From Limnohabitans sp. INBF002 (GTDB lineage: Bacteria; Pseudomonadota; Gammaproteobacteria; Burkholderiales; Burkholderiaceae_C): DNA of 64,000 nt. A program made the position numbers and the translations under genes. This document shows, one piece after another, positions 61,760 through 64,000 of the stretch; position 1 is the first letter of the stretch; each line of letters opens with the position of its first letter. Below the pieces are notes generated by a model, which saw only the letters and a program-made list of their open reading frames with translations, did no database searches and was not told where the DNA came from. The stretch is from positions 1,054,001-1,118,000 of the forward strand of contig NZ_AP027055.1 in the NCBI RefSeq assembly GCF_027924905.1, given 5' to 3'.

Positions 61760-62890
61760 ATGCATGTGAACAAACCCCTGACCCTGCTCGGCGGCATCAG
61801 CCCCGCCGAATTTATGAACACTTATTGGCAGCGCAAGCCCTTGTTGGTGCGCCAAGCCATCCCTGAATTCAAAGCTTTGCTGAGTCGCCCTGAGCTGTTT
61901 GACTTGGCCGAACAAGCGGAGGTTGAGTCCCGTTTGGTCATGGGGGCGAATGGCGGCCAACGCGATTGGCAGATGCAACGCGGCCCGTTCAAGCGCCGCG
62001 CCATCCCCAAGCTGACCGAGCGCGACTGGACCTTGCTGGTGCAAGGCGTGGATTTGCACGACGACCGTGTGGCCGCTTTGATGCAGCAATTTCGTTTCAT
62101 CCCAGACGCCCGTTTGGACGATGTGATGATCAGCTACGCCACCGAAGGCGGCGGCGTGGGCCCGCACTTTGACAGTTACGACGTGTTTTTGTTGCAAGCC
62201 CAAGGGCAACGCCGCTGGCGCATTGGCCGACAAAAAGATTTGTCGCTGGTGCCCGACATGCCGCTGAAAATCTTGGCCAATTTCAAACCCGAGCACGACT
62301 GGGTGCTCAACCCCGGTGACATGCTGTATTTACCCCCGCGTTATGCCCACGATGGCATTGCACAAGGTGAGTGCATGACTTACTCCATAGGTTTTCGCGT
62401 GCCCCAAGTAGGGGATTTGGCCCGTGAGTTGTTGGTGCGCTTGAGCGAAGGTGCGGAAGAGGCCGCTGGCTGCGATTTGTACAAAGACGCCGCTCAACCT
62501 GCGGTGTCTAAACCCGCCGCCATGCCCGAAGGTTTGGCTGAATTTGCGAAATCTGCTTTACAAAAAGCGCTAAAAGATCCTAAAGCCCTACAACGCGCTT
62601 TAGGTGAGTATCTGACCGAGCCCAAAGCCAATGTTTGGTTTGAGATCGGCGATGTGCTAAATAAGCTCAAATCACTGCGTTTAGACCGACGAAGCAAGAT
62701 GATGTACGACGCACATCACATCTTTTTGAATGGCGAAAGCTGGCGTGCGGCTGGCAAGGATGCCGCCTTGATGCGTCAATTGGCCGATGCACGTGAGTTG
62801 ACCCAAGTGGATCTATTGAAGGCCAGCCCTGAAGCGCTCAACTTGTTGATGGAGTGGTGTGACGATGGCTGGCTTCATTCAGGGGCTTGA
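61760..62890 (+). CDS. roxA: RoxA/YcfD-like ribosomal oxygenase (JmjC cupin)
   Basis: A 2-oxoglutarate/Fe(II) oxygenase of the YcfD family, which in E. coli hydroxylates Arg81 of ribosomal protein L16. The 376-residue protein begins with the family segment FMNTYWQRKPLLVRQAIPEF. It then has the JmjC metal site GPHFDSYDVFLLQAQGQRRW (His near 135, Asp near 137) and the third ligand in LPPRYAHDGIAQGECMTYSI (His near 197), and a C-terminal winged-helix-like domain. The specific target is inferred from homology. It diverges from slyD. Confidence 0.93.
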   Translation: MHVNKPLTLLGGISPAEFMNTYWQRKPLLVRQAIPEFKALLSRPELFDLAEQAEVESRLVMGANGGQRDWQMQRGPFKRRAIPKLTERDWTLLVQGVDLHDDRVAALMQQFRFIPDARLDDVMISYATEGGGVGPHFDSYDVFLLQAQGQRRWRIGRQKDLSLVPDMPLKILANFKPEHDWVLNPGDMLYLPPRYAHDGIAQGECMTYSIGFRVPQVGDLARELLVRLSEGAEEAAGCDLYKDAAQPAVSKPAAMPEGLAEFAKSALQKALKDPKALQRALGEYLTEPKANVWFEIGDVLNKLKSLRLDRRSKMMYDAHHIFLNGESWRAAGKDAALMRQLADARELTQVDLLKASPEALNLLMEWCDDGWLHSGA

Positions 62891-62925
62891 AATGAGCCAA
62901 GTTGACGCGAAGCTGACGTGGTTTT

Positions 62926-63052
62926 TTGTCATGCATAGGATTTACCCTATAATGAGAGGCTGAGTTGGCGGGCTCGAGTCCATCAGCTCGGTTGTGGTGC
63001 AAACCACAGCAATTTCCGGAAATTGTTTTCATCCCCTTTAAGGAATATCGAA
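62926..63052 (+). promoter_or_regulatory. Strong promoter and structured leader of the small lipoprotein gene
   Basis: TTGTCA (62926-62931), a 16-bp spacer and consensus TATAAT (62948-62953) form a near-ideal sigma-70 promoter with start near 62960. The leader of about 93 nt contains TGTGGT-GCAA-ACCACA (62993-63008), a 6-bp stem with a GNRA tetraloop. A 14-nt palindrome AATTTCCGGAAATT (63011-63024) and AAGGA about 9 nt before the ATG follow. Confidence 0.75.
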
Positions 63053-63226
63053 ATGAACAAGTCAATCCTGTTGGCATCTTTGTTGGCTGCTGCCGCTCTC
63101 GTCGCTTGCGGCAAAAAAGAAGCTCCTGCTGTTGAAGCCGCTCCTGCTGCTTCTGCTGCTGTTGAAGCCGCTTCTGCTGTGGCTTCTGAAGCCGCTGCGC
63201 CAGCTTCTGACGCTGCCAGCAAGTAA
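63053..63226 (+). CDS. Small alanine-rich lipoprotein, function unknown
   Basis: A 57-residue protein with a lipoprotein signal MNKSILLASLLAAAALVAC (lipobox LVAC, Cys 19) leaving a mature peptide of only 39 residues, GKKEAPAVEAAP then Ala/Ser/Glu/Val repeats ending ASDAASK. The DNA contains a repeated GCTGTTGAAGCCGCT unit. The residue after the Cys is Gly, not Asp, so outer-membrane sorting is expected under the E. coli +2 rule (inference). The gene has its own near-consensus promoter, a ribosome site AAGGA and an intrinsic terminator, so it is a complete small transcription unit, probably highly expressed. I do not recognise a named family; similar tiny Ala-rich lipoproteins occur in Burkholderiales. 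Confidence 0.8.
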   Translation: MNKSILLASLLAAAALVACGKKEAPAVEAAPAASAAVEAASAVASEAAAPASDAASK

Positions 63227-63246
63227 TCAGTTTTCGAACTGACTGC

Positions 63247-63273
63247 AAAAGCCACCCATTGGGTGGCTTTTTT
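63247..63273 (+). terminator. Intrinsic terminator of the small lipoprotein gene
   Basis: An 11-bp stem AAAAGCCACCC/GGGTGGCTTTT with a 3-nt loop and a T6 tail lies 20 bp after the stop. Confidence 0.92.
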
Positions 63274-63293: not shown

Positions 63294-64000
63294 TTAGACC
63301 GTCATCCAGTCAGAGCCTTGAATTGGGTCTGCTACGGCGATGTCCAAAGGTGCGCATCCCATGGGCTCACACAAGCTGGTGCGCGCCAGTTCGGGGGTGT
63401 TGTTGCGTTCGCTCAAATGTGCCGCCAAGATGCAACTTAAGTCGTCGTGCTTGACACGGGCCAATAGGTCGGCCGCGGCGTGGTTGGCCAAATGCCCCCA
63501 AGGGCCTGAGACGCGTTGCTTTAAAAAAACAGGGTAACCCGAGGCTTGCAGCAAATCAGGATCGTGGTTGGCTTCTAGTAGCAGGGCATGGCAGCCTTGC
63601 AATGACGCCACCACATGAGAAGACACGTGACCTAAATCGGTGATCACACCCAAATGCCGATGGCCATCGGTGCAGCGCAGCTGCAAGGGCTCGCGCGCAT
63701 CGTGCGGTACCGTAAACGGCATCGCTTGCAAGTCGCCCAATTCGATGGCGCTGCCATCGCGCGCCACATTCAGCAAATGTTGATAAGGTGTCCATGCACC
63801 ACCGTCACTCACGGCCAGCCATGTGCCTTGGCTCATCCAAAGAGGTGTTGAATAACGTTTGATAAAGCTGCGTGCACAGCCAATGTGGTCGCCGTGTTCG
63901 TGGGTGATGAAGATGGCGTCAAGATCCTCGGCGCAGGTGCCCGCTTCGATGAGGCGAGCCTCTAGATCACGCAGGCGAAGGCCGCAGTCGATGAGCAAGC
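63294..64000 (-). CDS. Metallo-beta-lactamase-fold hydrolase, WalJ/YycJ-like (N-terminus beyond window)
   Basis: The visible 235 codons belong to an MBL-fold protein of the WalJ/YycJ/PhnP-like group. The zinc motif FITHEHGDHIGCARSF (HxHxDH) lies near the visible N-terminus, and GVITDLGHVSS, LLLEANHDPDLL and CILAAHLSERNNTPELA supply further metal ligands. Relatives start about 20 residues earlier with a LGSGSxGN segment, so the true start is probably just past the right edge. An ATG at the visible N-terminus would miss that strand. WalJ-type proteins are implicated in DNA processing in some bacteria, but the substrate here is unknown. Its 3' end faces the lipoprotein terminator. Confidence 0.88.
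   Translation of the reverse strand, partial: LLIDCGLRLRDLEARLIEAGTCAEDLDAIFITHEHGDHIGCARSFIKRYSTPLWMSQGTWLAVSDGGAWTPYQHLLNVARDGSAIELGDLQAMPFTVPHDAREPLQLRCTDGHRHLGVITDLGHVSSHVVASLQGCHALLLEANHDPDLLQASGYPVFLKQRVSGPWGHLANHAAADLLARVKHDDLSCILAAHLSERNNTPELARTSLCEPMGCAPLDIAVADPIQGSDWMTV

Follow-up and report, generated by a model that had tools for sequence, protein, structure and literature searches.

A structured leader RNA in front of a widespread Ala-rich lipoprotein gene in Limnohabitans and its relatives

What does a gene for a lipoprotein of only 57 codons gain from an elaborately folded leader? We have considered this question at a locus of Limnohabitans sp. INBF002, whose complete genome is 2.59 Mb, within a stretch of 64,000 nucleotides that we refer to as the window. 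The initial annotation described positions 62926-63273 as a complete unit with promoter, structured leader, lipoprotein gene and strong terminator, and all four components are indeed present; the promoter, the leader with its ribosome-binding site and the gene (63053..63226) lie on the + strand. The intrinsic terminator GCCACCC-ATT-GGGTGGC-T6 (63247..63273) is situated between convergent genes, and although it is not listed by a consensus scan it folds and recurs in relatives. The unit is preceded by a gene for a RoxA-like JmjC oxygenase (61760-62890; PF08007, PF20514) and faces a convergent gene for a protein with a metallo-beta-lactamase fold (63294-63998; PF12706), and both neighbours recur beside the lipoprotein in many relatives. 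The named relatives among the genomes compared are mostly Burkholderiales, including Rhodoferax, Polaromonas, Ideonella, Aquabacterium and Variovorax.

The promoter recognised by consensus scan (62926..62953) consists of a -35 TTGTCA (62926-62931) and a -10 TATAAT (62948-62953) with a 16 bp spacer, and agrees with the consensus at 11 of 12 positions, as the description of it as near-consensus implied. The match by itself proves little, because one such site was found where 0.5 are expected in shuffled sequences. Alignment of the upstream regions shows that the -10 box and its distance to the leader are kept in relatives while the -35 hexamer varies, and that the conserved stretch runs from the -10 box to the ribosome-binding site. 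An imperfect inverted repeat, TAGG-ATTTA-CCCTA (62936..62949), overlaps the -10 and has similar counterparts in most relatives within the genus; it is a possible operator or transcription-factor site, and a 19-nt stretch at the repeat occurs once in the genome with up to three mismatches allowed. Relatives of the Ideonella, Aquabacterium and Thiomonas types have a GGG-n-CCC repeat farther upstream, near the -35. We also note a direct repeat, TGAC-N7-TGAC, with an 11 bp period upstream of the promoter (62903-62917); 10 of 33 lipoprotein loci have it in this position, and the window contains it three more times. OmpR-type response regulators often bind repeats with an 11 bp period.

The leader that follows, some 90-93 nt long, is predicted to form three hairpins. 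Two of these, a GCAA-tetraloop hairpin and a palindrome ahead of the ribosome site, had been noticed before and fold as described; the third, at the presumed 5' end, had not. This 5'-terminal element, hairpin I (62960..62991), contains an invariant CUCGAG (62973-62978). Hairpin II (62991..63010) has its GCAA tetraloop here, but elsewhere its sequence and length vary and its covariation is the strongest of all. Hairpin III (63010..63025), CAAUUU-CCGG-AAAUUG, is the 16-nt palindrome CAATTTCCGGAAATTG, nearly invariant in sequence and present at one place in the genome. The ribosome-binding site AAGGA (63040..63044) is invariant in 29/29 aligned leaders of the genus. The leader folds with a z-score of -2.36 and the whole transcript with one of -4.78.

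The case for an RNA element is carried by covariation. Among 17 of the 29 genus leaders (alignment A3, from which covariance model R1 was built), five of the eight pairs of hairpin II have changes on both sides. In a broader alignment of 33 leaders, five from the genus and 28 from elsewhere (A6, the basis of model R2), both partners have changed in 20 of the 26 pairs, as compared with 10.9 in shuffled alignments, with none of 500 shuffles reaching as high, and 90.0% of cells are paired, whereas structures slid along the alignment reach at most 50.3%. Because the helices covary, these comparisons demonstrate selection on the RNA structure, and with its position behind the promoter the element has the attributes of a structured cis-acting leader. 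The pattern is not uniform: three relatives within the genus (G019, G027 and G012) have no evident hairpin III, four of 33 lipoprotein loci (G017, G039, G043 and G054) gave no evident counterpart of the leader and are outside the leader alignment, and at G017 and several further lipoprotein loci the leader looks different.

The position of the leader relative to the promoter is unusually constant, with exactly 5 nt between the -10 box and the first position of the model in 33/33 leaders. Transcription typically starts some 6-8 nt behind the -10, and from this promoter geometry we infer that the mRNA begins at the base of hairpin I, which would place a hairpin at the extreme 5' end. The reading we prefer is that of a leader that would protect the message of a probably abundant lipoprotein and keep it translatable, while its two invariant sites may bind a trans-acting factor; we hold it tentatively, with somewhat less than an even chance of being correct. 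In keeping with it, the region of the ribosome site is predicted to be more open with the real leader than with shuffled ones in 43 of 56 cases (0.592 as against 0.544), a small effect.

The same features could be read as a true switch that responds to a signal by turning lipoprotein synthesis on or off, whether as a riboswitch, as a thermosensor or as an autoregulatory leader that binds protein. Covarying helices together with sequence-invariant sites are what sensing leaders have, and a leader that serves nearly one gene only would suit this role. However, the ribosome site stays rather accessible in the predicted fold, and no competing fold was seen in which it would be hidden. Hairpin III, at -2.2 kcal/mol in its most frequent form, is weak, and the sequence is conserved only modestly by the standard of a ligand pocket, so that we view a switch as a possible but rather unlikely explanation. 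Alternatively, hairpin III and the U-rich stretch behind it could act in attenuation or could form the end of a small RNA derived from the leader; in 31 of 33 leaders at least four of the 8 nt that follow the stem are indeed T. A stem of only about -2 kcal/mol is nonetheless far weaker than the gene's own terminator, and the hairpin is not evident in one sublineage; we judge the attenuator role weak on the stem energy and the proposal as a whole improbable. In a third view the palindrome AATTTCCGGAAATT works as DNA, as the operator of a transcription factor, and not as a hairpin in the RNA; it is a near-perfect DNA palindrome with strongly conserved sequence. A search of 60 genomes found the pattern in 16, and in 15 of these at a single place, which argues against a multi-site regulon; moreover, some relatives keep the hairpin but change the sequence or lose the palindromy of the loop, and the remaining hairpins need RNA. 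We regard an operator as distinctly improbable. All three are less supported than a protective, translation-promoting leader, and the invariant CUCGAG loop and hairpin III suggest specific recognition by a putative partner.

The leader is tied closely to its gene. Model R1 recovers 56 of 58 sources at E <= 1e-4 (L014 and L027 are missed), has one match in the Limnohabitans genome itself, and matches 45 of 250 genomes of the family; at all 27 new loci that it fetched outside the genus the lipoprotein lies directly downstream, in one instance with a shortened frame. R2 has matches in 61/250 genomes of the family, spread over 42 of 141 genera. It lists 63 places, of which one is an antisense echo of the hit in genome G180, leaving 62 that are distinct, and the lipoprotein is directly behind 61 of the 62, the exception being a hit in G079 (contig C13, L151) with no lipoprotein behind it. 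These 61 are made up of three genus loci, the 27 fetched with R1, two more, and 29 of 30 others fetched, among which L132 and L135 repeat L113 and L117. One R1 hit, in G256, is absent from the R2 list and outside the 62 places; for G358 and G503 the better hit runs antisense to the lipoprotein gene. At the level of the order, seven of 250 genomes match, including the Limnohabitans genome and one other family member; in two of the matches outside the family the lipoprotein and the CCGG hairpin are present but the hairpins ahead of the latter differ, and three hits with E of 0.005-0.008 (L127-L129) have no such lipoprotein gene.

At four loci (L163, L161, L125 and L126) the same lipoprotein and CCGG hairpin are accompanied by different upstream hairpins, as if the leader were built of exchangeable modules. 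The two invariant sites can also be followed by simple pattern: a CCGG palindrome is present within 75 nt of the start codon in 85 of 144 lipoprotein loci, and CTCGAG farther up in 76. In the 79 loci outside those to which the leader model had led, loci of the genus among them, 27 have the CCGG palindrome, 25 have CTCGAG and 18 have both, as compared with two, 89 and none, respectively, among 2238 control upstream regions.

The protein has a simple layout: a signal sequence, L-x-A-C-G-K-K-E, an Ala/Pro-rich tail and usually a C-terminal lysine, and the window protein has the lipobox LVAC and ends in lysine. Its lipobox and frame are conserved in relatives, which the initial annotation had made one of the tests of its proposal; genus homologues start with M-[KNT]-K-[ST], have a lipobox ending A-C-[GS]-K-K and keep the low-complexity tail. 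The protein matches 240 of 250 sampled family genomes at E <= 1e-4, which is an upper estimate because the tail is low-complexity, the model being low-complexity and its hits partly verified. The 145 collected members, which are different proteins gathered from all loci and in part by way of the leader model, have tails with 52% Ala and 12% Pro, and mature lengths from 23 to 131 residues. Longer tails have less Pro (rho -0.55, not corrected for kinship), as would be expected if helical and extended tails spanned similar distances. The lipobox with Gly at +2 suggests that the protein is probably located in the outer membrane, where it may act as a spacer. Of the 24 Ala codons in the window gene, 17 are GCT. 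The corresponding share in the genome is 14% for a set of ten ordinary genes and 42% for the EF-Tu gene taken together with those of eight ribosomal proteins; this bias points to high expression, and the lipoprotein is probably abundant. A strongly expressed small lipoprotein under post-transcriptional control, as originally proposed, is therefore probable from the leader covariation and the GCT bias, but the kinship with Lpp or entericidin proposed with it finds no support. The protein has no match in Pfam at E values up to 1. A plasmid search with the lipoprotein gave no match. It is best regarded as belonging to an Ala-rich lipoprotein family that Pfam does not describe, with the spacer as its putative function.

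Braun's lipoprotein, Lpp, is small and strongly expressed, with a terminal lysine and a terminator, and the present protein resembles it in size, in its common terminal lysine, in its terminator and probably in strong expression. A Braun-type tether, with the C-terminal lysine joined to peptidoglycan, would account for the lysine at the end of 117 of the 145 members, or 99 of 124 when these are collapsed by their first 32 residues, as compared with 6 of 53 background ORFs. Unlike Lpp, however, the protein has no Pfam match and a low-complexity tail of variable length, and 14 of the 145 members end in asparagine. A search of the complete genome for YkuD (PF03734) gave no match, while the control search was positive in 6 of 14 known genomes, which makes covalent attachment of the Lpp type unlikely, and overall we consider a tether very improbable. 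The combination of a small lipoprotein ending in lysine with a genome in which no YkuD L,D-transpeptidase was detected is an observation in its own right.

The reading that we prefer, a protective 5'-terminal leader, can be set out as follows. The unit would yield an abundant and very small lipoprotein whose Ala-rich tail reaches into the periplasm, from an mRNA that opens with a dedicated three-hairpin leader. Hairpin I at the transcription start would shield the 5' end from pyrophosphohydrolase and from RNase E entry, and because the hairpins pair among themselves the ribosome site would stay open, giving a long-lived, well-translated message. The CUCGAG loop and the CCGG hairpin (AAUU-CCGG-AAUU) may be where an RNA or protein acting in trans docks and adjusts lipoprotein output to the needs of the envelope. 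The evidence in its favour is the covariation, the fixed distance from the -10, the near-exclusive pairing with one gene, the openness of the ribosome site, the GCT bias and the lack of an Rfam match, from which we infer mRNA stability, protein abundance, location and the trans-acting factor, as we do the start site. Counted against it are the three relatives in which hairpin III is not evident, the divergent leaders, and the much narrower spread of the leader (R2 matches in 61/250 family genomes) than of the lipoprotein (240/250, the upper estimate). A more ambitious proposal is that the leader represents a new class of start-site-locked regulatory RNA in a betaproteobacterial family, dedicated to one very common lipoprotein, which senses the state of the envelope through the CUCGAG loop and the CCGG hairpin, with a protein, a small RNA or a ligand as mediator, and controls how much is made of an outer-membrane spacer ending in lysine, a substitute for Lpp in a bacterium that lacks YkuD enzymes; we think this quite unlikely. 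A testable structured RNA with no match in Rfam stands before a Pfam-less lipoprotein for which almost every sampled family genome has a match, and if the leader sets lipoprotein dosage it offers a route to understanding how the outer membrane is held and regulated in betaproteobacteria that have no enzymes for Lpp-type attachment.

Several known systems invite comparison. In the literature covered, with most subscription journals outside it, nothing by title or abstract opening describes the lipoprotein or the leader. The initial signal peptide and lipobox are shared with LptM (NCBIfam NF047847), which scores 17 bits against a cut-off of 27.7 and matches residues 1-22 only. The Neisseria Lip (H.8) and Laz lipoproteins, according to PMC9239064, carry AAEAP repeats and so share a low-complexity tail rich in Ala, Pro and Glu; unlike them, only 15 of our 145 members contain AAEAP, two of these twice or more, and the window protein has none. 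The leader itself resembles cis-regulatory leaders in Rfam in having covarying helices directly upstream of one gene, and none of 4227 Rfam families reaches its gathering score on it. Low scorers including isrG, Phe_leader, Leu_leader and Qrr were rejected: all are below their gathering scores, and most fall within the Ala-rich part of the coding sequence or on the terminator. A further analogy is with the ompA-type 5'-terminal stem-loops that stabilise mRNA in enterobacteria, since both would place a hairpin at the extreme 5' end of a message for an abundant envelope protein. Stabilisation is a prediction in the present case, and unlike the ompA-type elements this leader occurs in a different bacterial group and combines three hairpins with two invariant sites.
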